DNA of 64,000 nucleotides. Origin: Procambarus clarkii. Lineage: Eukaryota; Arthropoda; Malacostraca; Decapoda; Cambaridae. The position numbers and the translations under genes were made by a program. Below, in pieces: positions 5,714 to 61,850 of this stretch (its first letter is position 1; each line of letters starts with the position of its first letter). The notes beneath the pieces were generated by a model. That model was not told the origin of the DNA. It saw nothing but the letters and a program-made list of their open reading frames with translations, and ran no database searches. The stretch is from the NCBI RefSeq assembly GCF_040958095.1, contig NC_091181.1:27050783-27114782 (forward strand). The letters are read 5' to 3'.

Positions 5714-5798
<85 letters not shown>
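5714..5798. repeat. (TA)n microsatellite, left boundary of satellite array
   Basis: About 42 TA units. The tract ends exactly where the inverted 260-bp array starts (ACTGAAAACTC). A second (TA)n bounds the other end of the array. Confidence 0.98.
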
Positions 5799-5799
<1 letters not shown>

Positions 5800-8143
5800 C
5801 TGAAAACTCACACCCCAGAAGTGACTCGAACCCATACTCCCAGAAGCAACGCATCTGGTATGTACAAGACGCCTTAATCCACTTGACCATCACGACCGGA
5901 CATAATGAGGTGATAGCCGAGGCTATTTGAACCACCCCACCGCCGGCACTCGGATAGTTATCTTGGGCATAGCATTTTACCAAATCACCTCATTCTTTGG
6001 GGCAACACGTGAGGAACACAAATGCGAACAAGCCTGAATGGTCCCCAGGACATATGCAACTGAAAACTCACACCCCAGAAGTGACTCGAACCCATACTCC
6101 CAGAAGCAACGCATCTGGTATGTACAAGACGCCTTAATCCACTTGACCATCACGACCGGACATAATGAGGTGATAGCCGAGGCTATTTGAACCACCCCAC
6201 CGCCGGCACTCGGATAGTTATCTTGGGCATAGCATTTTACCAAATCACCTCATTCTTTGGGGCAACACGTGAGGGACACAAATGCGAACAAGCCTGAATG
6301 GTCCCCAGGACATATGCAACTGAAAACTCACACCCCAGAAGTGACTCGAACCCATACTCCCAGAAGCAACGCATCTGGTATGTACAAGACGCCTTAATCC
6401 ACTTGACCATCACGACCGGACATAATGAGGTGATAGCCGAGGCTATTTGAACCACCCCACCGCCGGCACTCGGATAGTTATCTTGGGCATAGCATTTTAC
6501 CAAATCACCTCATTCTTTGGGGCAACACGTGAGGAACACAAATGCGAACAAGCCTGAATGGTCCCCAGGACATATGCAACTGAAAACTCACACCCCAGAA
6601 GTGACTCGAACCCATACTCCCAGAAGCAACGCATCTGGTATGTACAAGACGCCTTAATCCACTTGACCATCACGACCGGACATAATGAGGTGATAGCCGA
6701 GGCTATTTGAACCACCCCACCGCCGGCACTCGGATAGTTATCTTGGGCATAGCATTTTACCAAATCACCTCATTCTTTGGGGCAACACGTGAGGAACACA
6801 AATGCGAACAAGCCTGAATGGTCCCCAGGACATATGCAACTGAAAACTCACACCCCAGAAGTGACTCGAACCCATACTCCCAGAAGCAACGCATCTGGTA
6901 TGTACAAGACGCCTTAATCCACTTGACCATCACGACCGGACATAATGAGGTGATAGCCGAGGCTATTTGAACCACCCCACCGCCGGCACTCGGATAGTTA
7001 TCTTGGGCATAGCATTTTACCAAATCACCTCATTCTTTGGGGCAACACGTGAGGAACACAAATGCGAACAAGCCTGAATGGTCCCCAGGACATATGCAAC
7101 TGAAAACTCACACCCCAGAAGTGACTCGAACCCATACTCCCAGAAGCAACGCATCTGGTATGTACAAGACGCCTTAATCCACTTGACCATCACGACCGGA
7201 CATAATGAGGTGATAGCCGAGGCTATTTGAACCACCCCACCGCCGGCACTCGGATAGTTATCTTGGGCATAGCATTTTACCAAATCACCTCATTCTTTGG
7301 GGCAACACGTGAGGAACACAAATGCGAACAAGCCTGAATGGTCCCCAGGACATATGCAACTGAAAACTCACACCCCAGAAGTGACTCGAACCCATACTCC
7401 CAGAAGCAACGCATCTGGTATGTACAAGACGCCTTAATCCACTTGACCATCACGACCGGACATAATGAGGTGATAGCCGAGGCTATTTGAACCACCCCAC
7501 CGCCGGCACTCGGATAGTTATCTTGGGCATAGCATTTTACCAAATCACCTCATTCTTTGGGGCAACACGTGAGGAACACAAATGCGAACAAGCCTGAATG
7601 GTCCCCAGGACATATGCAACTGAAAACTCACACCCCAGAAGTGACTCGAACCCATACTCCCAGAAGCAACGCATCTGGTATGTACAAGACGCCTTAATCC
7701 ACTTGACCATCACGACCGGACATAATGAGGTGATAGCCGAGGCTATTTGAACCACCCCACCGCCGGCACTCGGATAGTTATCTTGGGCATAGCATTTTAC
7801 CAAATCACCTCATTCTTTGGGGCAACACGTGAGGAACACAAATGCGAACAAGCCTGAATGGTCCCCAGGACATATGCAACTGAAAACTCACACCCCAGAA
7901 GTGACTCGAACCCATACTCCCAGAAGCAACGCATCTGGTATGTACAAGACGCCTTAATCCACTTGACCATCACGACCGGACATAATGAGGTGATAGCCGA
8001 GGCTATTTGAACCACCCCACCGCCGGCACTCGGATAGTTATCTTGGGCATAGCATTTTACCAAATCACCTCATTCTTTGGGGCAACACGTGAGGAACACA
8101 AATGCGAACAAGCCTGAATGGTCCCCAGGACATATGCAACTGA
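5799..8143 (-). repeat. 260-bp tandem satellite with tRNA-like module, left arm
   Basis: About nine head-to-tail 260-bp units on the minus strand. The units look identical except for one A/G change near 6274. Read on the minus strand, each unit contains TGGTCAAGTGG (A-box fit) and, about 50 bases later, GGTTCGAGTCAC (B-box fit, last base off). It also has GGTTCAAATAGCC, a second B-box-like site. The surrounding sequence resembles a class II tRNA (Leu/Ser type), including TTAAGGCG and CACTTCTG. Each unit yields an 88-codon open frame, but it starts at TTG and there is no evidence of translation. Confidence 0.93.
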
Positions 8144-9774
8144 GTATGGGTTCGAGTCACTTCTGGGGTGTGAGTTTTCAGTTGCATATGTCCTGGGGAC
8201 CATTCAGGCTTGTTCGCATTTGTGTTCCTCACGTGTTGCCCCAAAGAATGAGGTGATTTGGTAAAATGCTATGCCCAAGATAACTATCCGAGTGCCGGCG
8301 GTGGGGTGGTTCAAATAGCCTCGGCTATCACCTCATTATGTCCGGTCGTGATGGTCAAGTGGATTAAGGCGTCTTGTACATACCAGATGCGTTGCTTCTG
8401 GGAGTATGGGTTCGAGTCACTTCTGGGGTGTGAGTTTTCAGTTGCATATGTCCTGGGGACCATTCAGGCTTGTTCGCATTTGTGTTCCTCACGTGTTGCC
8501 CCAAAGAATGAGGTGATTTGGTAAAATGCTATGCCCAAGATAACTATCCGAGTGCCGGCGGTGGGGTGGTTCAAATAGCCTCGGCTATCACCTCATTATG
8601 TCCGGTCGTGATGGTCAAGTGGATTAAGGCGTCTTGTACATACCAGATGCGTTGCTTCTGGGAGTATGGGTTCGAGTCACTTCTGGGGTGTGAGTTTTCA
8701 GTTGCATATGTCCTGGGGACCATTCAGGCTTGTTCGCATTTGTGTTCCTCACGTGTTGCCCCAAAGAATGAGGTGATTTGGTAAAATGCTATGCCCAAGA
8801 TAACTATCCGAGTGCCGGCGGTGGGGTGGTTCAAATAGCCTCGGCTATCACCTCATTATGTCCGGTCGTGATGGTCAAGTGGATTAAGGCGTCTTGTACA
8901 TACCAGATGCGTTGCTTCTGGGAGTATGGGTTCGAGTCACTTCTGGGGTGTGAGTTTTCAGTTGCATATGTCCTGGGGACCATTCAGGCTTGTTCGCATT
9001 TGTGTTCCTCACGTGTTGCCCCAAAGAATGAGGTGATTTGGTAAAATGCTATGCCCAAGATAACTATCCGAGTGCCGGCGGTGGGGTGGTTCAAATAGCC
9101 TCGGCTATCACCTCATTATGTCCGGTCGTGATGGTCAAGTGGATTAAGGCGTCTTGTACATACCAGATGCGTTGCTTCTGGGAGTATGGGTTCGAGTCAC
9201 TTCTGGGGTGTGAGTTTTCAGTTGCATATGTCCTGGGGACCATTCAGGCTTGTTCGCATTTGTGTTCCTCACGTGTTGCCCCAAAGAATGAGGTGATTTG
9301 GTAAAATGCTATGCCCAAGATAACTATCCGAGTGCCGGCGGTGGGGTGGTTCAAATAGCCTCGGCTATCACCTCATTATGTCCGGTCGTGATGGTCAAGT
9401 GGATTAAGGCGTCTTGTACATACCAGATGCGTTGCTTCTGGGAGTATGGGTTCGAGTCACTTCTGGGGTGTGAGTTTTCAGTTGCATATGTCCTGGGGAC
9501 CATTCAGGCTTGTTCGCATTTGTGTTCCTCACGTGTTGCCCCAAAGAATGAGGTGATTTGGTAAAATGCTATGCCCAAGATAACTATCCGAGTGCCGGCG
9601 GTGGGGTGGTTCAAATAGCCTCGGCTATCACCTCATTATGTCCGGTCGTGATGGTCAAGTGGATTAAGGCGTCTTGTACATACCAGATGCGTTGCTTCTG
9701 GGAGTATGGGTTCGAGTCACTTCTGGGGTGTGAGTTTTCAGTTGCATATGTCCTGGGGACCATTCAGGCTTGTT

Positions 9775-9779
<5 letters not shown>
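8144..9779 (+). repeat. 260-bp tandem satellite, right arm
   Basis: About 6.3 units of the same 260-bp monomer in the opposite orientation to 5799-8143. The right arm from 8178 mirrors 6542-8143, giving a palindrome with arms of about 1.6 kb and a 34-base unpaired centre (8144-8177). The centre joins ...GCAACTGA to GTATGGGTTCGAG, so the two arrays break at different points of the monomer. The array ends at TTCGCAT, directly in (TA)n. Confidence 0.93.

Positions 9780-9825
<46 letters not shown>
9778..9825. repeat. (TA)n microsatellite, right boundary
   Basis: About 24 TA units fused to the ...GTTCGCAT end of the satellite array. Confidence 0.97.
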
Positions 9826-18079: not shown

Positions 18080-18557
18080 ATGATGATTTACAGTTCAGTG
18101 GGTGTGGATATATAGGCAGGAAAGAGGTGAGGTGAGGTACAATGACCATGTAATGAGATAATGGGATATTATAAGGTATTAGTGAGAAATGTGTATCGAT
18201 GATCCTACTCAACTCGCCCTTTAACTGATCAGTCAAAAATGAATCTAAATTATACAAACCAATGATAATATTAAAATTACATGATTTCGTAATCTGTATT
18301 AAAGCAGATTCAATAATGTTCCTATTGAAAATGATTTTACAATTCGTTATTGAAGAAGACATCTCACAATCAAATTGGTGAGAACTTTCTGACAAATGAA
18401 CAAACAAATCATTAGACAATTGGCCGTGTCTTACAGAATATTTATGTTGCGAATTTCTAAATTTCAAATCTTTGGATGTTTGTTCTACATAGAACCTATT
18501 ACAGTATTTACAAGGTAATTTGTAAATGACAATTATCACTACGAGGACTGTTTCCAA
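18080..18557 (-). mobile_element. Penelope-like element, GIY-YIG endonuclease remnant
   Basis: The minus-strand frame encodes VIYKLPCKYCNRFYVEQT, then QHKYSVRHG, LFVHLSESSHQFDC and NIIESALIQ. This is the C-terminal GIY-YIG nuclease of Penelope-like elements, with the expected CxxC and the catalytic Glu of IIESAL. The first GIY glycine is Val and YIG reads YVE, so it is probably inactive. The reverse transcriptase is absent (5'-truncated). Confidence 0.75.
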
Positions 18558-18810
18558 CTAATAGTTTTCAAACAGTATTTTCGTAATTAAACAATACATG
18601 TACAGTCTATCAAAGTGTTTCAAGGCCTTGAAAATATTTTCGAACCCAGAAAATTATGGTAAACAACATTTTTTTTGGCGATTTTTTTCACTGCATAAAT
18701 TATTACAATATGTACTACGCGCTTTGCTACAGCAAACTTCCAAAAAACTTAAGTGGATAACAAAGCTTGAGACCAATAGAATCAATATTCTTAAACTCTT
18801 CGTCCAAGAG

Positions 18811-19068
18811 GGCCAGATTCACGAAAGCACTTACGCAAGTACTTACGAACGTGTACATCTTTTCTCAATCTTTGGCGGCTTTGTTCCCAATTATTAAACA
18901 GTTAATGAGCTCCGAAACCACAGGAGGCTGTTTATAACAATAACAACAGTTGATTGGGAAGTTTTCATGCTTGTAAACTGTTTAATAAATGTAACCAAAG
19001 CCGTCAAAGATTGAGAAAAGATGTACACGTTCGTAAGTGCTTGCGTAAATGCTTTCGTGAATATGGCC
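18811..19068. mobile_element. MITE with long terminal inverted repeats
   Basis: GGCCAGATTCACGAAAGC at 18811 is mirrored by CTTTCGTGAATATGGCC ending at 19068. The arms (18811-18883 and 18996-19068) are 73 bp with a few mismatches, and weaker pairing extends inward about 25 bp. It has no protein coding; the open frames across it are chance. No clear target duplication was seen. Confidence 0.8.

Positions 19069-30281: not shown

Positions 30282-30285
<4 letters not shown>
29891..30285. mobile_element. 395-bp MITE embedded in (TA)n with CCTAA core
   Basis: TGTCGTACCTAGTAGCCAGA at 29891 is mirrored by the end of the element at 30285. The 85-bp terminal inverted repeats (29891-29975, 30201-30285) differ at about three sites. 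(TA)n flanks both sides. The middle holds (CCTAA)n followed by (TTAGG)n. No transposase is encoded. The TA flanks fit a TA-targeting DNA transposon, but the superfamily is not shown. Confidence 0.9.
29996..30101. repeat. Telomere-like (CCTAA)n/(TTAGG)n inverted tracts
   Basis: CCTAA runs to about 30052 and then, after ATAAAGAT, reverses to AGGTTAGG runs. TTAGG is the common arthropod telomere repeat. Here it lies inside a MITE, so it is an interstitial, element-borne tract and not a chromosome end. Confidence 0.85.
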
Positions 30286-30329
<44 letters not shown>

Positions 30330-30333
<4 letters not shown>

Positions 30334-30453
30334 CACAGACACAAACTAGGGTTTTACACAACTTCCCCATGCACTCAAGATATGTCAATAGGCCGTTCTA
30401 CCTCTTCGCCCTTACATCAGTTGTATATAGTCCTGGGGACCATTCAGGCTTGT
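30330..30453 (+). repeat. Module M copy 1 between (TA)n tracts
   Basis: CAGACACAAACTAGGG, ACTTCCCCATGCACTC, AATAGGCCGTTCTACC and CCTGGGGACCATTCAGGCTT, flanked by (TA)n at 30286-30329 and 30454-30478. The last block is identical to part of the 260-bp satellite monomer. Confidence 0.85.
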
Positions 30454-30493
<40 letters not shown>

Positions 30494-30518
30494 CATTCAT
30501 ATATATATATATATATAC

Positions 30519-30645
30519 ACACACAGACACAAACTAGGGTTTTACACAACTTCCCCATGCACTCGAGATATGTCAATAGGCCGTTCTACCTCTTCGCCCT
30601 TACATCAGTTGTATATAGTCCTGGGGACCATTCAGGCTTGTTTGC
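30519..30645 (+). repeat. Module M copy 2
   Basis: This is almost identical to 30330-30453 (one A/G change in CACTCRAGA and a few end bases), again with (TA)n on both sides (30646-30670 on the right). It ends GGCTTGTTTGCATATATA, as the satellite arm does at 9779. Confidence 0.85.
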
Positions 30646-30710
30646 ATATATATATATATATATATATATAATCAATTTATCTATCCTTCCATCTACTCAT
30701 CTATCTATCC

Positions 30711-36174: not shown

Positions 36175-39100
36175 CTAAATATCACCAAGGATGCCAATAC
36201 GAGAACAAAAACGCATAAGGCGAACGATATCAAAAGTATCCGAGTCACCAAGAATTCTATCGAGGGACAGGTGACCGCGAGGGGCGGTCGGAAAGCAAGA
36301 CACACGCTCGTCCTGGAAGTCAGGACATTCAAGAAGGACATGCACGACCGTAAGAGGGACAATGCAACTAGGACAATAAGGAGCAGGGCGGCGCTCCATC
36401 AAGTGACCATGGGTTAAGCGAGTATGGCCAATACGCAACCTCGCTAGAGCTGTTTCCCACCGCCGGTTACGGTGGAAGGAGGACGGCCACGAGGAAACAC
36501 AACATTTAAGAGTACGTAGCTTGTTACCAGTAACAGACAACCAAGAAGCCTGCCAACGGGTAAGGACTGAGGAATGGATAACCGGGTAAAAGTCGGAATA
36601 CGGAATGCCTTTACGAGAGATGGGACAAGAGCGGACAGCTTCCTTAGCGGCAGCATCCGCACGCTCATTTAAAGACACGCCAATATGGCTGGGAACCCAA
36701 CAAAACTCAACCGACTTAAATTTACTGTGAACGAGAAACAGCCAATGCTGGATCTCGACAACTACCGGATGAACTGGATTAAAGCACCCGAGAGCCATGA
36801 GGGCACTACGAGAGTCAACAACAACCACAAAGGAAGACTGACAACGAGAAAGCAGGAGACGAAGAGCATAGAGAATAGCATAAAGTTCCGCTGTAAAGAT
36901 GCTAGTCTCCGGAGGCAAGCGACACATATAAGTGCGATCAGGAAAAACAACAGAGTAGCCAACACCGTCCGCTGACTTAGACCCATCGGTGAAGACAGAA
37001 ACGGAGCGGGAGTGAGAAGAAAAGTGCTCGAGGAAAAGGCGTTTTAGAACTGTAGGAGGGGTAAAAGCTTTAGTGATACGAGTCAAGGATGTACAAAACC
37101 GCGGAAGAGGGACCCTCCACGGGGGCAAAGAAGGAACAACACGAGGAGAAACATCAGAAATACGAACGGAAAGAGAATCCTGCAGGCGAGATAACCGGAC
37201 AGAAAGAGGGAGGTGGTGAAGAGGAACAGGAACCGCAGGAGGGGTAAAAGTTAAAGCACGACAGAGACGAGAGGAAGGATGTTGCAAGGACCGCGCAAGA
37301 TAGCGAAGACAGTAGCGATCACGGCGGTCCTGGAGAGACAGGAAGCCAGTGTCAACATACAAGCTAAGGACGGGAGTCGAACGAAAGGCACCAGAACTGA
37401 GGCGCAACCCAGTATGGTGCAAAGCATCAAGACGGCGAAGAGTAGAAGGAGAAGCAGACGAGTAAGCAGGGCAACCATAATCGAGCTTAGACAGGACGAG
37501 AGAGGAATGTAAAGCAAGGAGAGTGCGCCTATCTGCCCCCCAAGAAGTATGGGACAAGACCCGAAGGAGGGTAAGGGACTTAGAGCACTCAACACGGAGG
37601 TAAGAGATATGGGGAGACCAAGACAAACGAGTGTCAAGGAATAACCCCAAAAGCTTCGCGGAATCTTTGTATTCAAGGGGATGACCATAAAGTGACAAAG
37701 AGGGACGAAGAACAACCCGTTTCCGCGTAAAAGTCATGGCACAAGTCTTAGAAGTAGAGAACTTGAAGCCATGACCTGTGGCCCAAGACGACACGGCATC
37801 AATCGCAAGTTGAAGCCGGCGTTGAAGGAGAGGCGAATCATCACCCTGACAACAAAGGGTAAGATCATCGACATAGAGAGCGGAGAAGACACCAGAAGGA
37901 AGAGAGGAAAGAAGACCATTGAGGGCAACCAGAAAAAGAGTAGTGCTCAGAACACTACCCTGGGGCACACCTTCGTATTGCTGAAAAGGGGGAGAGAGAG
38001 CGGTACCAAGGCGCACCCGAAAGGAACGACGAGAGAGGAAGCTGCGGAGAAAGAGAGGGAGATGACCACGAAGGCCAAAAGAATGAAGTTGAGATAGGAT
38101 ATGATAACGCCAAGTGGTGTCGTAAGCCTTTTCTAGGTCAAAAAGGACGGCAACAACGGAGGTCTTTGCAGCAAAAGCAGTACGTATATAGACCTCCAAG
38201 TTCACCAGGACATCTGTCGTGCTGCGGCACTTGCGGAAACCAAATTGAGAAGGGGAGAGGAGGTGATGGTGTTCCAGGAACCACATCAGACGAACGTTAA
38301 CCATACGTTCAAAGAGTTTGCAGACACAACTTGTGAGAGCAATAGGGCGAAAGTCCTTAGGGGAAGTACCCAGAGACCCTGGTTTGCGAACAGGGAGGAC
38401 AACGGCATCGAGCCAGTCCTCAGGGACTGACGACGACTCCCAGATCCGATTATACAGACTCAGTAAATACTGAGACGTGCTCGGAGGGAGATGGCGAAGC
38501 ATCTCATAATGAATACCATCGGAGCCCGCCGCCGTAGAACCGCAGAGGGCCAGGGCAGAACGAAGTTCAGAGAGAGAGAAGGGATCATTATAGGGAAGCT
38601 GAAGATGAGTGCAGAAATCTAAAGGACGAGACTCAAGGACAGGTTTACGAAGAAGGAAAGATTGGGGAAGATGAAGACCAGAGCTAACAGAAGAAAAGTG
38701 GGAACCCAGTTCGGAAGCGACCTGCAACGGGTCCGCCACAAGAGTATCATGGAGGTGAAGGACCGGTGAAACATCGGGAACGAACTTGCCCGCTATCTTG
38801 CGGATACGCTTCCAGATCTGGGCCAGAGGGGTTTCGGACGTAATTGTCGAGACATAAGATGCCCAACATTCACGTTTAGCCGTACGGATGGCCCTACGGG
38901 CCACCGCACTCGCTTTCCGAAAGAAAAGAAAAGAATCGGTCGTCTGCCTACGGCGGTGCTTCTTCCAGGCTGCACGCTTACAGCGGACAGCCCGAGCACA
39001 GTCCGCATTCCACCAGGGAACGCACTTCCGTGGACCCCGAGAGGAAGAGCGAGGAATAGAGCGGAGGGCAGCGTCGAAGACAGTGTCATGAAAAAGGAGG

Positions 39101-39900
39101 AGAGCGCGAGAGAGGGGCAGAAGGGAGAGGTCAGAGAGAGTAGCACTGAGGGAAAACAGGGTCCAGTCCGCCTTAGCAAACTGCCACCTAGGGAAAGAGA
39201 GGGAAGGGCGAAAAGAGAAAAAGGAAACAAGGATGGGGAAATGATCACTTCCATGGAGGTCATCAAGAACCTGCCATGTGAAATCTAAGTAAAGAGAAGA
39301 AGAGCAGAGAGAAAGATCAAGACAAGAAAGGGTGCGAGTTCGAGAGTCCAAATGAGTGGGCTCACCAGAATTCAGAAGAGACAGGGAAGAAGAGAGGAGA
39401 AACGGCTCAAGGAGGCGACCCCGGGTATTCGTCAGAACGTCACCCCAAAGAGAATGACGACAATTGAAGTCACCCAGCAGGAGCACAGGCTCCGGCAAGG
39501 AGTCTAGGAGGTGTTTCAAATCAGGAAGAGAGAGCGGGACACTCGGGGGGAGATAAATGGAACAAACTGTGTAACATTTCCCCACAAAGATACGAGCAGC
39601 AGAACAATGGAGAGGCGAAGGAAAAAGTAAAGGAACAAAGGGAACATCAGCCCGAATCAAGAGAGCAGAAGAATTAGAAGCCCCAGCAATGGCTGGGGGG
39701 GGGGAGAGAAAGGAATAGCCACGAAAACGACCAGGACGAGCACCAAGCATCGGCTCCTGGAGACAGACACAAAGGGGCGAAAACCGCGAAACCAGAAGTT
39801 GGAGTTCGAGGAAATTGGCGTAATAACCTCGAACGTTCCATTGAAGAATGGACAACGACGAGAAGAGAAAGGACAAAAACAGAGAACAAGGAAGAAACAA
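36175..39900 (-). CDS. LINE ORF2: endonuclease, reverse transcriptase, RNase H
   Basis: A 1241-residue frame without stops. Residues about 17-228 are an APE-type endonuclease (LQWNVRG, LQEP, LLGDFNCRHSLWG, GSDHFP). Residues about 495-765 are the reverse transcriptase: motif A VLFDLEKAYD (D588), EGVPQGSVLS, and ALYVDDLTL (D678, D679). Residues about 966-1090 are RNase H: FTDGSK (D972), TAELYA (E1005), VVDSRSA (D1029), NERADAAAK (D1082). A C-terminal knuckle C1176-x2-C-x7-H-x4-C1192 follows. The protein would nick target DNA, copy the LINE RNA in place and degrade template RNA. The first ATG is assumed to be the start. It begins about 190 bases after the ORF1 stop. Confidence 0.93.
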   Translation of the reverse strand: MFLPCSLFLSFLFSSLSILQWNVRGYYANFLELQLLVSRFSPLCVCLQEPMLGARPGRFRGYSFLSPPPAIAGASNSSALLIRADVPFVPLLFPSPLHCSAARIFVGKCYTVCSIYLPPSVPLSLPDLKHLLDSLPEPVLLLGDFNCRHSLWGDVLTNTRGRLLEPFLLSSSLSLLNSGEPTHLDSRTRTLSCLDLSLCSSSLYLDFTWQVLDDLHGSDHFPILVSFFSFRPSLSFPRWQFAKADWTLFSLSATLSDLSLLPLSRALLLFHDTVFDAALRSIPRSSSRGPRKCVPWWNADCARAVRCKRAAWKKHRRRQTTDSFLFFRKASAVARRAIRTAKRECWASYVSTITSETPLAQIWKRIRKIAGKFVPDVSPVLHLHDTLVADPLQVASELGSHFSSVSSGLHLPQSFLLRKPVLESRPLDFCTHLQLPYNDPFSLSELRSALALCGSTAAGSDGIHYEMLRHLPPSTSQYLLSLYNRIWESSSVPEDWLDAVVLPVRKPGSLGTSPKDFRPIALTSCVCKLFERMVNVRLMWFLEHHHLLSPSQFGFRKCRSTTDVLVNLEVYIRTAFAAKTSVVAVLFDLEKAYDTTWRYHILSQLHSFGLRGHLPLFLRSFLSRRSFRVRLGTALSPPFQQYEGVPQGSVLSTTLFLVALNGLLSSLPSGVFSALYVDDLTLCCQGDDSPLLQRRLQLAIDAVSSWATGHGFKFSTSKTCAMTFTRKRVVLRPSLSLYGHPLEYKDSAKLLGLFLDTRLSWSPHISYLRVECSKSLTLLRVLSHTSWGADRRTLLALHSSLVLSKLDYGCPAYSSASPSTLRRLDALHHTGLRLSSGAFRSTPVLSLYVDTGFLSLQDRRDRYCLRYLARSLQHPSSRLCRALTFTPPAVPVPLHHLPLSVRLSRLQDSLSVRISDVSPRVVPSLPPWRVPLPRFCTSLTRITKAFTPPTVLKRLFLEHFSSHSRSVSVFTDGSKSADGVGYSVVFPDRTYMCRLPPETSIFTAELYAILYALRLLLSRCQSSFVVVVDSRSALMALGCFNPVHPVVVEIQHWLFLVHSKFKSVEFCWVPSHIGVSLNERADAAAKEAVRSCPISRKGIPYSDFYPVIHSSVLTRWQASWLSVTGNKLRTLKCCVSSWPSSFHRNRRWETALARLRIGHTRLTHGHLMERRPAPYCPSCIVPLTVVHVLLECPDFQDERVSCFPTAPRGHLSLDRILGDSDTFDIVRLMRFCSRIGILGDI

Positions 39901-40092: not shown

Positions 40093-41841
40093 TCAAGGGG
40101 GAGTAGAAAGAGAGGAGCGCACCCCAGCAAGAGCAGCAACCGAAAGGGAAGCAGGGGCCAAAGAAACCTCCATAGCAGGAACAGGGGGCGCAAGCACTGA
40201 AACGGGAGTGGAAGGAGCAACAGAGCCAGAAGGAGGAGCTGAGGAAGAAAGCGAAGCCTTCTTACCCGCCGGGGAAGAGGAAGGAGAGGAGCCAGGCTTA
40301 CGCTTCTGACTTAAAGAGACCGGTGTCCCAGCAACTACGTACCGGGCAACGGACTCCAGTGTCTCAACAGGAGAAGCCGAACGAGAGCACACACGACGGC
40401 CGTTAGGAGAGCGATGGACATCCGCCCGCACCGACAGGCGGCGGGGAGAGCCGATAGATGGAGGAAGAGGATGGGAAGGAGGATCGGAGGGGGACGAGGA
40501 AGGAGACACAGAAGACACGACAGACCGGGTAGAAGGAAGGGGAACCCCAGACAGAGGACCAGGAGGAGGATCCTTCGGGAGAGAACCCAAAGGGACAGAG
40601 GAGGGGGCAGTGGGCGCATCAGGGTCCAAGGCCTGGAAACGGTTGTGAGTCTGAGGAAGGCGGGAAGGACGAGGAGAGGAAGAGCGCAACACGCGAGCAT
40701 AAGAGATATTAGCATAAGGCGGGAGCCGGCGAACCTGGCGCCTCACCTCAGGAAAAGATAAACGCTCCCGGTGCTTCAAGTTGAGGACGGCTGCCTCAAG
40801 CTTGTAATGGACACACGCACGGGAGAAGGTAGGATGGGCCTCACCGCAGTTGAGGCAACGAGCCTGGGGAGAAGCGCACTCCGACTTAGAGTGACCTTCG
40901 CCACCACACAAAGGACAGAGAGAGACAGTCCCGGAGCAGCGGAGGGCACCATGCCCAAACCTCCAGCACTTGTTGCAGAGCCGAGGAGAAGGAATGTACT
41001 CCTGGACAGAGCACCTGGCACCAGCAAGAATGACAGAGGGTGGAAGGGTCCTACCATCAAAGGTAATCTTCACAACCCGGAGGGGTTGACGGCGACTACC
41101 ACGAGGGGGACGAGTAAACGTGTCCACCTGGAGAATAGAATGGCCCTGGGCAGCGAGGATATGTCGAATATCGTCGTGGCAGTCGCGTAGGTCCCGAACA
41201 CCGGTCGCAACATGGGGCGGGAGCAAAATAGTGCCAACACTGGCATTCAACTGGACGTTCTTCGAGACCCGAACGGGGGTCTCGCCAAGGCAGGATAAGG
41301 CAGCCAAGCGGGAAGCAGCATCCTGAGAAGGAGCAGCAACGACACGCGTACCGAGACGAGTGGGGTTAAAAGTAATGGAGGCATCCACGGAATCAATGAG
41401 ATGTCGATGAAGGGAGAAATCGTCAGGAGGCGCAGAATCAAGAGGGAGGAGATCAAAATATTTGGCCCACGAAGCGGGACCAAACAAGGCTTGATAGGTA
41501 GCAGAACTGGAAGGAATCGAGCGAGGGCGGCCGTGACGAGAACGGCGGTGAGAACCCCCAGAGAGAGAGGGGTTAAAAGGCGCAGTAGTAACAACTAGAG
41601 AAGGAGCCGCGCCAGGGGACGAGGTAGTCACCACTGGGGGCTTGGGGCTCGACCCAACCACAGAGGAGGGAGGGGAGCCAGGGGAAGGAGTCAGAGAGGC
41701 CAAAGGAGGAGCAAGGTCGGGGCCCAATGCAGCGGAGGCTACAGAGCCCGGTCTTCCAATACGGACCGACTCGGGGGCTTGGTCGCCCACCCCACGAGCC
41801 TGAAAAGGTAAGCCAGAAGCAGCCGAAACAGGGGTTATCAT
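40093..41841 (-). CDS. LINE ORF1: gag-like nucleic-acid binding protein
   Basis: A 582-residue frame. The N-terminal about 100 residues and the C-terminal about 200 are Pro/Ser-rich and probably disordered. The middle (about 110-285) is the conserved domain of I-type ORF1 proteins. Three zinc knuckles follow at about 289-343: CNKCWRFGHGALRC, CPLCGGEGHSKSEC and CLNCGEAHPTFSRAC. It should bind LINE RNA and form the ribonucleoprotein with ORF2. A (GGA)n tract at 40048-40074 just downstream of its stop lies in an overlapping frame that stays open to 39924, so a short frameshift extension cannot be excluded. Confidence 0.9.
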   Translation of the reverse strand: MITPVSAASGLPFQARGVGDQAPESVRIGRPGSVASAALGPDLAPPLASLTPSPGSPPSSVVGSSPKPPVVTTSSPGAAPSLVVTTAPFNPSLSGGSHRRSRHGRPRSIPSSSATYQALFGPASWAKYFDLLPLDSAPPDDFSLHRHLIDSVDASITFNPTRLGTRVVAAPSQDAASRLAALSCLGETPVRVSKNVQLNASVGTILLPPHVATGVRDLRDCHDDIRHILAAQGHSILQVDTFTRPPRGSRRQPLRVVKITFDGRTLPPSVILAGARCSVQEYIPSPRLCNKCWRFGHGALRCSGTVSLCPLCGGEGHSKSECASPQARCLNCGEAHPTFSRACVHYKLEAAVLNLKHRERLSFPEVRRQVRRLPPYANISYARVLRSSSPRPSRLPQTHNRFQALDPDAPTAPSSVPLGSLPKDPPPGPLSGVPLPSTRSVVSSVSPSSSPSDPPSHPLPPSIGSPRRLSVRADVHRSPNGRRVCSRSASPVETLESVARYVVAGTPVSLSQKRKPGSSPSSSPAGKKASLSSSAPPSGSVAPSTPVSVLAPPVPAMEVSLAPASLSVAALAGVRSSLSTPP

Positions 41842-51900: not shown

Positions 51901-54900
51901 AGGAGTTACCGTTTGGAAGGGGAGTCCCCTTCCATAATCACATCACATAACCCCATGCCTTGTAACACTATGGATACCACTTCTCTTTCTAAATTTTTCA
52001 AACCAGCCCCTGCTTGCCTTAAACTCTTTCTTATCTGCATCACTCGTTGCAGGGGTATTCTTTAGAAGGTCTTCGTGCAACACCCTGGCTTTCTCACAAA
52101 TAATGGCCTCCGAAACACTATCACCCCTCAACTCCTTGTCGTGTATCCAAATTAATAACAACTTTTCCACTTCTTCAAGTATTTGTGGTCTTTGTGCCAT
52201 TAATGTTCTTACTCCTTTTGCCACTTTAGCACCCATAATCTTATTTTTCTTCTTAAGTATAGTGCATATTGTTGATGTGGCTTTGTTGTACTGCCTACAA
52301 AGTTCAACAACACGTGTACCGTTCTCATGCTTCCGAATGATCTCTTGTTTCTCCTCTATTGTCATCCTCACATGAGCTTTCTGGCCTTTATCCTTACCAC
52401 TGGCTTTCTTGGGACCCATGGTGAGATATATAATAACAAATTGTATAGACTAATCACCAAAAATCCAACAAAACACTGAAAATCCGCGAGAAGAATTGAT
52501 GTGGGGGTAGTCACTGAGCGCGAGACAATAATAAACTGAGGGGCGGCGGGGCGGAGGGGCGACGATCGCCGAACCACCACGCGCTAGGTTGGCTGTACGC
52601 GTATCAACAAACTCGCGTCCAAACTCGCCTCCCGAAGTAACCATCGCCTTCCGAGACAAATTTTTGGAGTAAATACACCTCGCCTTCCGAAAACCTCGCA
52701 TACAGGGACAATCGCATTCCGAGGTACCACTGTACAGTATATGTTCTGCCATTTACCCTAGTGTTTCAATCTGTTTGCCCTAGGTTCTTGGGATTTGAGC
52801 TTTGAGTTGTTCAATATGTTACCCGATTTATTCTAGTTGGTTACCTCTGGATTCCAGCCTACGTGATCTGGTAATCCAGTTTGTCAGTTAGCTGACTCGG
52901 TTGAGTTACCTGACTCGCCTGCTCGACTGGGCGAGTTACCCCTTCTGCTTGTGAGGATTGTTAACATTTCAGTCTAAGTATTCCCATGACCTTCATAGAG
53001 AGTGAGAACTTTTGATTCCTTTGGGCGTCCTTGGCCTGATGTATTCCCCCATCACCACTGTGTTTTGCCTGTTGTGTTTACTTTTTCTTTGTGAGAGCAG
53101 CCGAGTCCCAGTCCTTGTACGAGTTTGCCTTCTAGCAGCAGGTTTGTCTGCCTGTGTCCCTTGGGTGAAGTCTACGTGGTCCCTCTACCGAGCCTGAATT
53201 TGGGCAGTTCTCCTTGGTTTGTGCCCCTTCCTGGAACCAATACTCAGGTTCAGACTCTGGTTCTTTTCTATGGTACTCTTCTGTTGCCCAGGGGGTACCA
53301 GGTGCACTTTAATGCTTTTCCGTTCAAATGTCATTTTTGCCTCTTGCCTGTTCCTCCGGGTTTATTTCCTGGAATTTCCATGCAGTTTATCTGGTCTACT
53401 TACCGGCTGGGTTTTGAGCATTTCTGCTGTTGGGTGTTGCTTTCCACATTCTATCTTCTAGCTGTTCATTCACGATTTGACTCTTAAGTTATTTGGATGC
53501 CACATCAAATAAAATTTGATGTTAATGATCTTTGATACCCTGTACCACCAGATTAAGTCAGAGTTCAAATGAACCAAGTGCTGTTGCCCTAGGTACTTCG
53601 CTCCTTGTTGATAACCACTGTGGACGGTCGATCGTCTGGTCCTTACACCGCTGCTCACTGACTTGGTCCAAGTAAAGCACTTTTGAACACTTTGTGTTGG
53701 TCACTTGTTTTCTTTGGACATTCTTCATCACAAAACTTGTGTGGTACTTGGGTGGGTAACTCAAGTGTTGATTCTATCATTCACCTCCCAGAATCCTGCC
53801 TTTGTTTCCCAGAGGTCTGCGCTGAACATTTTTCTGTTTATAATTCAAACTTTTTTCAGGAAAAACGTAAACCTCTATTGCAATACTGTAGCGAGATAGT
53901 TAAGGGAATCCACCAAGAGGTACAGAACAGAAATAGTATCTAATGAAATGAAATGAAACTTATAAATAACCCTCAGTGGCTCCCAGTTAAACGAGTGTCT
54001 CACTAGCTGGCAACTCTGTAACCTGAGCTCCACCTGGTGGTAATTATGGAAGGTGAGAGAAAGGGTCGGTAACCATGTCTTATTGTTTCTACAAGTATTG
54101 GATACGTATTTTATATGAAGCTTTAAGTTTTAGTGTAATTCATGTTGACATCAGTGGCATTAGATCTCTATGCTTCCCTTGTCTGAGAACGCCATAGTCT
54201 GGTCCTTTGTGTAAATTTGGTGTAAATCTGGTCCTTTGTGTTTGGTAGAAGTCAAGCTGGGAGAAGGGTGAATGATGTCACCAGGTGCTGGCCCAAATTA
54301 AAATGTGTTGGGTTGATGCATTGTAAATGACAAAATGGACACTTACAGCAGTAATAAGGTTGGACCAAGGAGAACATTTCAGTGGTGATAGTTGCTTCAG
54401 TTATATTTTCTGACAAATATATAAAATTCCTTGGTGACTATGATTTGGCACAGTATCAAGTTATTGGGAACCGTTTTTATCTTATTCAGCAATGATATAC
54501 TGAACACTCAAAATTTATATTTATTTTGTGTGATTTACTGTACTGTTTTAAAAACATGTGCTTTAATTTTTATTGTAGTGCAGTATATATGAAAGATTAC
54601 AAATATTCTTATTAGAAATGTAGTAAAGGAATTTCTCATACCCTGTACGGATGGTCATCAAGTTAAATGTCTTGAAAATTGATATTACTTCCATCCGCAA
54701 TTTTGAGAAAAATAAGAAAATTTGAACGTCAAGATAGATAATAGGCACACTAGGTGTTAAAAGCTAGCAGGCAAGGTACAGAGATAGATCTCACTCTACC
54801 CTAGTCGCCGACAGGCAAGCAACTAAATTAAGAGGAATAAGCTATGGGGGACAGGTTAAGAGAACTCAGTATAACAACCAATAAGAGAGCAGGAGCAGTG

Positions 54901-56754: not shown

Positions 56755-58155
56755 CCAAACCACACACTAGAAATTGAAGAGACAATGATGTTTCGCTCCA
56801 TCCTGGACCATTATCAAGTCAATTGTGAAGAGACGAGAAAGACACAGACATTAGTAAGGCATGAAAGAGGTGAGGAGTAGGAAATCTTGGAGGAAGGTAA
56901 AAGCAAGGCGAAAGATAGGGGTAATGGGTATGAAGGGGGTAATAAAAGGAGTAAATAGATATGAAAGAAAAAGTAAAAGAAAAAGAAAGAGAAAAAGGAT
57001 GGGTAGGCCACGTTTAGGTCACGTTTGTTAGAAGTTTAGAAAAGTTTAGAACATTTGTGTATGTACTGTGAAAGGGAAGTGTCAACAGAAACAAAGCCAG
57101 GACTCTGGTTCATGTTGAGTAGGTTGTGTATCAGAGCCGATTCAACAAGATGGTGTCTGAACAGTAGAGGCAGGAAAGATTATTTTAGAAGAAGCCCAAT
57201 CAATAGGTTGATTAGAATCCCTAACATGACAGAAGAGAGCATTGTTTGTGTCTTCAGACATAACACTTCTTTTGTGTTCCTTAAGTCTGTCATTAAGTGT
57301 ATGGCTAGGTTACCCAAGTATTGGAGAGGACGAGACGAACAGGAAATAGAGAAGACACCCGCGGCATTAGAAGCAGGAGGAGAAGTGTGAACAAGATTAC
57401 TACGAAGAGTGTTAGTTTGTCGAAAGGTGAGCTTTATGTCAAGAGGACGAAGGGTATTAGTAAGAGTTTTGAGTTCAGATATAAAGGGAAGGCAGAGCAC
57501 AGAGCTAGTAGTGTTGGAAGCAGGTTTAGGATGAAAGAAATTATGTTTAGCTTGAGAATAGGCACAGTTGATAAAATGTAAGGGGTAAACAAAGGCGAGA
57601 GAAAGATTTGTAAATACTGTAAAGTAAATTTCAAAATTAAGAAACTGAGGGGTCACTGATGTGTAGAGCGCGGAGGAAGCGAGACGAGGACACTTTTATT
57701 TAAAAGGAGGAGGATGGTAGGAAAAGAAGTGAATATATATATCACTATGCATGGGTTTGTGACAGAGAGAAAGAGAACCCGGTCAAAGAGCTGTGAACAT
57801 ACATGAACGTCAAGAAAAGGAAGGACGGCATTTGATTCCCATTCAATTTGGAAATGGCTGGAAGGAGCCAAATTGTTAAGAGAGGAGAGGAAAGGCTGGA
57901 AAAGAGTAAGGTCATGGGGCCAAAGGCAAAAATATCATCAACATAGCGAAGTCACAGAGGGACGATTATCAACAGTGGGAAAAAGAACGGTTTCGAAGTA
58001 TTCCATATAGAGATTGGCAAGAACAGGAAAGAGAGGGGAACCCATACCGACACCGAAAGTTTGATAGAAGTACTTACCATTGAAAGAGAAGGAATTAAGA
58101 GTCAACACAGAGTATGACGAGTTCAAGGAGGACGTCAGTGGGAAGCGGTAGATGA
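56755..58155 (-). mobile_element. Penelope-like element, frameshifted
   Basis: Minus-strand pieces in order: FNGKYFYQTFGVGMGSPLFP and LANLYMEYFETV (RT), LRYVDDIFAFG in another frame with the YVDD codons at 57946-57935, WESNAVLPFLDVHV (later RT), LRPLDIKLTFRQTNTLRS (thumb-like), then a degraded GIY-YIG nuclease (VFSISC...YLG). Several frameshifts separate these parts. The 3' end carries CTTGATAATGGTCCAGGATG and GCGAAACATC at 56790-56825. The order RT then GIY-YIG is diagnostic of Penelope-like elements. Confidence 0.82.
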
Positions 58156-60599: not shown

Positions 60600-61850
60600 A
60601 AGGACAACATTAAGAAAACATGGAGCACTATTTTAAAAATATTATGATAAAAAACAGATTTTTAATAAAAAAAACAATACTGTACTCCTATCCAATGACG
60701 ATGGTGTGCTTTCAGTCTCTGACACTATTAAAATCAATAGCTTCTTCTCATCCATTGGCAAATTATATTCCATCCTCCATAACAAACGTTAAGAACTTAC
60801 AGGAAACTATCCAGAGCCTCTGTACCTAACTCCCGCTAATTCCTCTGATGTTAATGAGATAATCCTTTCTCTTAAAACAAAGTCAAGTGCCCTTGCTGAG
60901 ATACTAACTCTAATTTAGAAAAAAACATCGAGATTTCTAGCTTCAGTCATTGTATTGCTCTACAACAAACCGCTTGAACTCTAAACCTTTCCGGATATTC
61001 TAAAAAAAAAGCGAGAGTAACCCCAGTTCATAAATGTGGTGATCTCACTGATGTCAACAATTTCAGACCTATATCAATTCTGCCAACCTTGTCAAAAATA
61101 TTTGAAAAGCTAATCTACAAGCAGCTTTACTCTTATCTAACTAAACACAATATACTTAGCTCTTGCCAATATGGCTTCAGATCCCAAAAAAGCACTATCA
61201 ATGTACTGATTAGTATGATTAACTTGATACATGCAGCTCTCGATAAAAATGAAATTCCTGTTGGGTTATTTGTTGACTTACGTAAGGCTTTTAACACTGT
61301 CAACCACCAAAACCTTCTTCTTAAATTACAACATTATGGAGTCAGAGGTCACTCCCTCCAATACCTTCAATCGTATATAAGTGACAGGCTCCAGTATGTT
61401 TCTGTGAATGATTCTATTTCTCCCATCCTACCCATCAACATTAGTGTTCCACAGAGCAGCATACTTAGCCCTCTCCTCTTTCTCATCTACATTAATGACC
61501 TTCCAAATGCCCCTCAACACCTCAACCCAATTTTATTTGCTGATGACACAATCTTCATTTTCTCCAGTCCTAACTCTTACTCTGAATGATACAGTGAATA
61601 CTTAACTAAATGAAGTCCATCTTTGGGTATCTGCTAACAAACTCACCCTTAACATTGACAAAACCTTCTATATTTTGTTTAGTAATAAATTCTCAGATCA
61701 ACTTAATCTAAGAACAAGCAATATCCAAATTAATAACAAAGTAGATGGTAAATTCCTTTGTGTTCACATCAATAACAAGCTGAATTTCCAGGGCCACATT
61801 CAAAATATGGACACTGCTTGTATGCAGGCAGTGGAATTTCTGGTGGGGGG
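60600..61850 (+). mobile_element. LINE reverse-transcriptase pseudogene
   Basis: Plus-strand RT in several frames: VTPVHKCGDLTDVNNFRPIS, then a clean 166-codon frame (61089-61589) with SKIFEKLIYKQL, CQYGFRSQKST, GLFVDLRKAFNTVNHQ (motif A), SILSPLLFLIYINDLPN and LFADDTIF (motif C). The usual VPQGS is VPQSS. Stops follow, then LNIDKTFYILFSNK and LCVHINNKLNFQGHI. The tail is lost. It belongs to the Jockey/CR1/L2 group of RTs; the clade is not resolved. Confidence 0.8.

Follow-up and report, generated by a model that had tools for sequence, protein, structure and literature searches.

How does a satellite unit of 260 bp come to stand as a palindrome, with nine copies on one strand running into six on the other and almost no sequence difference among them? 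The question is raised by a locus in a 64,000-nucleotide stretch of the Procambarus clarkii genome (contig NC_091181.1, positions 27,050,783 to 27,114,782; here, the window). The palindrome, ~4 kb in total, consists of 9 plus and 6.3 minus units, in agreement with an initial annotation made from the letters alone, which had described about nine and about six near-identical units on opposite strands. An (AT)n tract (5714-5798), the left half of the target microsatellite, leads into the plus-strand left arm (5798-8143; 9 full 260-bp units and 6 nt, or 9.02 units), which starts at unit position 1, AACTGAAAAC, the untailed end Y. The minus-strand right arm (8142-9779; 6.3 units) finishes at unit position 227, GCGAACAAGCC, the tailed end X, and is followed by the right half of the target, a second (AT)n tract (9778-9825). 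The two arms share a 2-base overlap, GA, at their junction (8142-8143); positions 8144-8177, read earlier as the stretch where the arms meet, are not a foreign spacer and form the start of the minus-arm unit. We refer to the 34 nt from start site Y to X as the tail, which lies on the minus strand of every full unit (6024-6057 in the first plus unit). The arms as first delimited (6542-8143 and 8178-9779; 1602 bp) are 100% complementary, and a longer exact pairing joins 6282-7919 to 8142-9779 (1638 bp). A single base difference, A>G on the plus strand, distinguishes the 15 full units (9 plus, 6 minus); it lies at 6275, the annotation having placed it near 6274 with coordinates right to within a base. 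An 18-base piece of the unit had 18 matches in the window in a search that tolerated 3 mismatches, and every one of them was exact; the expectation from shuffles was 0.01.

Elsewhere in the window, a 1241-aa uninterrupted frame on the minus strand (36175-39900) has endonuclease, reverse transcriptase, and RNase H matches and represents a LINE-type retrotransposon; the frame upstream of it (40093-41841) had no Pfam match. Transposase DNA-binding domains of the Tc5/CENP-B type are encoded at 51943-52419 (minus strand), and a reverse transcriptase fragment of a LINE-type element at 61089-61589 (plus strand).

The palindrome belongs to a large family of plus-then-minus arrays

The genome containing the window (4.03 Gb in 2308 contigs) holds 136,731 exact occurrences of a 25-base tail motif of the unit and none of the reversed control. 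Multiplied by ~255 bp, this count gives an estimate of ~35 Mb, just under 1% of the genome, for the exact motif. A 1.4-kb piece of the palindrome, for which 40 of the 167 first-look candidates were scored, returned at least 46 matches spread over many contigs. We fetched 20 stretches, which are the best DNA matches and not a random sample, and a further 11 drawn from consecutive listed places on contig C1. A switch from plus to minus was found in 12 of the 20, and a switch from minus to plus within an array in none; the other eight (L011, L013, L014, L017, L019, L023, L025, and L026) show one orientation only, mostly because the stretch was cut inside an array. L016, one of the fetched stretches, additionally has a 59-bp minus piece 4.3 kb left of its array, past (AT)n and sequence of a Penelope-like element (PLE). 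By eye, all eight two-strand clusters among the first 100 motif places listed, which are all on C1, also run plus then minus. Motif spacings at these 100 places are mainly 260, with others of 252 and 251, indicating that related units behave alike.

A local assembly artifact had been named as the main alternative to a genuine palindrome. That an artifact of this kind, or a foldback read chimera, produced the locus is very unlikely, to the point of being negligible, because the same unit runs plus then minus elsewhere with other flanks, arm lengths, and junctions: none of the switches among the fetched stretches or the listed clusters is reversed, flanks and centers differ among loci, duplicated loci share their center, and the arms of one element derive from different monomers (see below). 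The earlier argument from the outer flanks, whose difference makes simple foldback chimerism less likely, was sound. The window palindrome is confirmed as real, and the genome has many thousands of mobile satellite arrays like it, each apparently built by repeated copying of a short RNA from the two cut strands of an AT-repeat, as PLEs do.

A second site in the window carries a related sequence. A 188-bp repeat of 2.1 copies on the minus strand (30285-30670) has the same tail motif (30435-30452 and 30623-30640) beside (AT)n and a different body. By eye, its left flank before (AT)n, TAGGTACGACAT, also flanks an element on C1 (L051/L054), which indicates that the same target repeat was hit at both places. 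Another element, L029, is followed to the right of its second (AT)n tract, at ~1750, by a diverged tail, GGCTTGGGAACAAGATTGAATGGTCCCCAAGCC, with a different and longer possible hairpin, and then by another tRNA-like stretch (by eye); this is perhaps a related element class.

Arrays end at two fixed, unlike junctions in (AT)n

At complete ends, (AT)n and the array adjoin at unit position 1 (Y) or at unit position 227 (X), two points separated by 34 nt. Exact junctions number 9,768 for Y and 12,375 for X genome-wide, unequal counts obtained with patterns of different length (45 and 38 letters), each of which misses variants; at the one control phase searched, the genome has no (AT)n junction. 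We then considered neighboring ends no more than 12 kb apart over the first 35.88 Mb of C1; of the 100 Y places listed, 36 that lay past the last listed X place were left out. They comprised 31 facing X-Y pairs, 3 facing X-X pairs, no facing Y-Y pair, and 13 pairs in other orientations, X-Y pairs thus making up 31 of the 34 facing pairs. Shuffling the labels of the C1 ends gave a mean of 16.3 facing X-Y pairs and a maximum of 27, and none of 10,000 shuffles reached 31. On this part of C1, the distance between facing X-Y ends ranges from 308 to 9,892 bp, with a median of 1,231 bp.

The fetched elements follow the same rule. A scan of the ends in 34 entries found 14 with facing X and Y, two (L051 and L054) that are the halves of a fifteenth such element, 9 with one strict end, one (L047) with two X ends, and 8 with none. 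Every fetched element with two strict facing ends in view has one X and one Y (15 of 15, of which 13 are independent, L020/L021 and L027/L028 being duplicated pairs). L029 has less than one unit per arm and yet carries one X and one Y end. Two loci are exceptions, namely, L047, whose two X ends point in the same direction, and L050, whose right end matches neither of the two junctions. A complete element has a single X and a single Y junction, both fixed in phase, and its units run plus then minus. The initial annotation, which made no mention of the flanking (AT)n tracts, did not describe the palindrome as a copy of a dispersed element that has two fixed ends of different kinds and is targeted to (AT)n; its interpretation stands in part.

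The target itself can be seen before insertion. L042, L046, and L053 sit between the same two outer flanks, which in L043 enclose an uninterrupted (AT)n; this empty site in a paralogous copy identifies (AT)n as the target, together with L048, a single truncated copy whose X end lies in (CATA)n. The target is AT-rich, and L048 is the exception to (AT)n at the ends read; inside (AT)n, a target site duplication is indistinguishable from the repeat. Some copies of the shared-flank repeat site hold satellite palindromes and one holds a PLE palindrome. A paralogous (AT)n-bearing repeat has been hit repeatedly by satellite or PLE palindromes at ~0.90-1.11 Mb and 3.90 Mb of C1 (L029, L042-L047, and L053). 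L029 and L043 have the element's left flank in common and a different monomer.

Penelope-like elements of the same genome share architecture and target

PLEs are abundant in decapods (PMC10454600). In the rotifer Adineta vaga, Penelope elements are reported to have head-to-head inverted pLTRs, which functioned in trans, a 31-bp tail optionally present at one of them, and a preference for AT-rich targets (PMC3846280). In the crayfish genome, L053 is an inverted duplicate of a PLE with arms 98% alike, 3′ ends outward, and both ends in (AT)n, one with a tail of ~40 nt and the other untailed; L009 holds a second PLE copy, likewise tailed at one end and untailed at the other, right beside a satellite palindrome. 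All 10 neighboring pairs of a PLE endonuclease piece no more than 20 kb apart run minus then plus (150 scored copies among 12,097 first-look candidates). The window has two decayed PLE coding fragments on the minus strand, matched by tblastn with the L052 protein (18183-18822 and 57294-58093), the first of which gave the 12,097 candidates. Satellite elements thus present features known from PLEs, i.e., head-to-head inversion with 3′ ends outward, an optional tail at one end (34 nt), and an AT-rich target, and in this genome the two kinds of element have the same architecture and the same target.

Two loci combine PLE and satellite sequences. In L015, one arm consists of sequence from another PLE clade, starting at the left (AT)n, and then one satellite unit, and the satellite arm that it faces terminates at X. 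L022 has a satellite array, also with an X end, that continues through a snapback into sequence from that PLE clade. Both matched the L052 protein in tblastn (E values of 5e-24 for L015 and 3e-16 for L022), and the PLE-like piece of L022 had no Pfam match. Both loci have the look of template jumps from one kind of RNA, PLE or satellite, to the other; nested insertion keeps a residual likelihood. The satellite tail was not found in the PLEs of L052/L053 or, by eye, in the clade of L015/L016/L022. A search for a partner PLE by means of the tail followed by another next base counted 142 places, of which 100 were listed; the two that were read are both satellite, one being a further palindrome center.

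We consider it probable that the window locus is one insertion of a nonautonomous retroelement that works like a PLE. Since no autonomous PLE with the satellite's own tail was found (the tails of the PLEs read differ), we do not file the satellite element as a member of the PLEs but only as working like one. Broken (AT)n ends could also invade a circular satellite monomer made of DNA at its AT-rich spots, copy round it, and join, with neither RNA nor PLE involved. Such copying would yield inward-facing homogeneous arms with microhomology centers and could use AT letters at both sites. It would not, however, be expected to fix the junctions to the base at X and Y with one of each per element, to start one copy (L048) at X in (CATA)n, or to go along with PLE chimeras and PLE inverted duplicates that obey the same end rule; we regard it as improbable.

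Each arm is copied from one monomer

Arm consensuses are identical in 15 of the 16 elements with at least one full unit per arm (14 independent, given the duplicated pairs L020/L021 and L027/L028), and the consensuses of these 16 differ from one another at 0 to 29 columns. Six elements have one common consensus, so that the identity of their arms says little; the others carry the information. For example, diagnostic variants are fixed in both arms of L010 (18/18 and 11/11) and L024 (3/3 and 5/5). The sixteenth element, L051/L054 (C1:2830700-2837100), begins on the left at Y, finishes on the right at X, and lacks (AT)n at its center. All eight of its plus units are within 1 edit of monomer F1 and all 12 minus units within 1 edit of monomer F2, F1 and F2 being 25 edits apart. 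Arms that are pure for different monomers must have been copied separately. Each arm was thus copied many times from one monomer, and the two arms separately. This element also argues against a DNA hairpin, an inverted duplication, or conversion between arms as the origin of the palindromes, and these readings were rejected on that ground. The initial proposal of very recent amplification or conversion therefore holds for its first half, i.e., a recent amplification from one unit; neither conversion nor a DNA foldback is needed, and the different monomers of L051/L054 argue against both.

Centers differ among loci. The arms overlap by 0 to 3 bases in 9 of the 16 elements and are separated by inserts of 4 to 25 bases in 6, several of which are snapbacks by eye. 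The procedure used to find centers needs a full unit in each arm, and in L012 it stops at a variant unit, which overstates the gap, so that this element is not properly measured. The duplicated loci (L027/L028 and L020/L021) retain their centers. These data bear on a foldback DNA transposon with inverted repeats made of satellite arrays, like Tetris, FB, or Galileo, moved by a transposase. Inverted arrays whose outer ends never change sense would suit such an element, and satellites are known in foldback arms (PMC4079207). Nevertheless, the termini differ in sequence and are separated by 34 nt in the unit, the center differs per locus and is not inherited, and the arms may have different monomers, all of which makes a foldback transposon highly improbable.

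A PLE-type insertion might also have dispensed with a circle, by using a long linear multimer RNA of an already homogeneous array or by inserting a monomer, each arm being expanded and homogenized later. PLE transcripts can be multimeric (PMC11167929), and local duplication after insertion would give minority variants repeated within one arm. Outside L051, 13 of the 14 minority variants present in at least two units are indeed confined to one arm. However, the variants of a heterogeneous multimer serving both arms should turn up in both, and only 1 of the 14 (in L018) does; moreover, the arms of L051/L054 are each pure for a different monomer. We hold the circle-free route to be unlikely, if still a serious contender. 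For the PLE-like insertion that we favor, the monomer RNA used as a template was probably circular.

A proposed route from satellite RNA to palindrome

The arrangement of ends, arms, and centers suggests the following sequence of events. An (AT)n microsatellite would be cut on both strands, and each 3′ end would prime reverse transcription on satellite RNA, which would be the minus strand of the unit. One target strand would start at X and the other at Y, which lies upstream of X on the RNA by 34 nt, and each polymerase would copy the 260-nt unit many times, most simply by running round a circular monomer. The outcome would be two homogeneous arrays pointing into each other, whose cDNAs could be joined through 0 to 3 bases of microhomology or through short inserts, often snapbacks. 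From the sequence arrangement, we infer that the template was RNA, that it was circular, that the enzyme was that of a PLE, and that both polymerases usually worked on one molecule.

Biochemical work on a purified Anolis PLE (Poseidon) offers a precedent. That report (PMC11167929) describes cleavage and extension of both strands of AT-rich DNA and starts at two adjacent internal RNA sites whose spacing equals the genomic tail of 30 to 40 bp, a length that the 34 nt of the satellite tail matches; no difference in start site was seen between strands. We tentatively suggest, at somewhat less than even confidence, that a single circular satellite RNA is bound by a dimer of PLE protein, that its two start sites lie next to each other there, and that each cut strand primes at one of them. 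Both polymerases would then run round the same circle many times, the PLE tail would be the spacing between two active sites, and L051/L054 would be the rare case of polymerases on different RNAs. Against a PLE mechanism stand the missing PLE with the satellite's own tail, the missing hammerhead, the three X-X pairs, L047, and L050. The absence of a strand difference in start site from the published assay also counts against the PLE reading, since X-Y pairing is strict here.

The unit itself was inspected for RNA features. Many PLEs and retrozymes carry hammerhead ribozymes. The unit gave no Rfam match at E values up to 10 and has no CTGANGA core, a search that variant ribozymes could escape, and with the motif absent, a hammerhead retrozyme was rejected. 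Weak Rfam matches lie on or start in AT repeats, far below family cutoffs. Weak tRNA-like A and B boxes (6398-6409 and 6342-6352, within 6342-6409 of the third plus unit, on the minus, presumed RNA, strand), as would suit the pol III promoter of a tRNA-derived SINE, agree with the consensus at 21 of 23 positions, as do 4 of 1,000 mononucleotide shuffles equally well. Neither ARAGORN nor Rfam found a tRNA in the unit, and a tRNA gene was rejected accordingly. RNA folding of the tail region said little (z = −2.1 for the unit stretch and −0.8 for the PLE tail).

If the dimer version is true, one insertion makes a homogeneous palindromic satellite array, and satellites would be seeded and homogenized by retrotransposition and not by unequal crossing-over. 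More generally, the proposed route would let dispersed palindromic satellite arrays arise homogeneous in a single step. Some ten thousand natural insertion products would make the little-known PLE reaction readable in its strand starts, cDNA joining, and template switches, and with the pairing of X and Y, ideas about the puzzling tail of PLEs can be put to a direct test.

Comparison with known systems

In the literature searched, which excluded most subscription journals, we met no palindromic satellite array attributed to PLEs. In LINE-1 twin priming, both target strands prime on the RNA, giving an inverted join with microhomology, an occasional 5′ inversion. In satellite elements, by contrast, the inverted product is the usual one and involves repeated copying of one monomer. 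Foldback transposons such as Tetris (PMC4079207) have long inverted repeats of satellite-like tandem repeats in common with satellite elements, which nevertheless differ in their unlike termini, a center that arises per copy with no inherited middle, and an (AT)n target. Compared with the metazoan retrozymes described in PMC7229834, the satellite has no hammerhead motif but has palindromic arms and two fixed ends.

The closest resemblance is to GIY-YIG PLEs such as Poseidon and Penelope. Head-to-head insertion, a tail of 30 to 40 bp at one 3′ end, and an AT-rich target are the same, and in those PLEs both target strands are extended and cis ends work in trans. Unlike them, the satellite element codes for no protein, its tail sequence differs from the PLE tails read, no hammerhead was found, and its arms are tandem arrays of one short unit, in which the pairing of a tailed with an untailed end is nearly strict.
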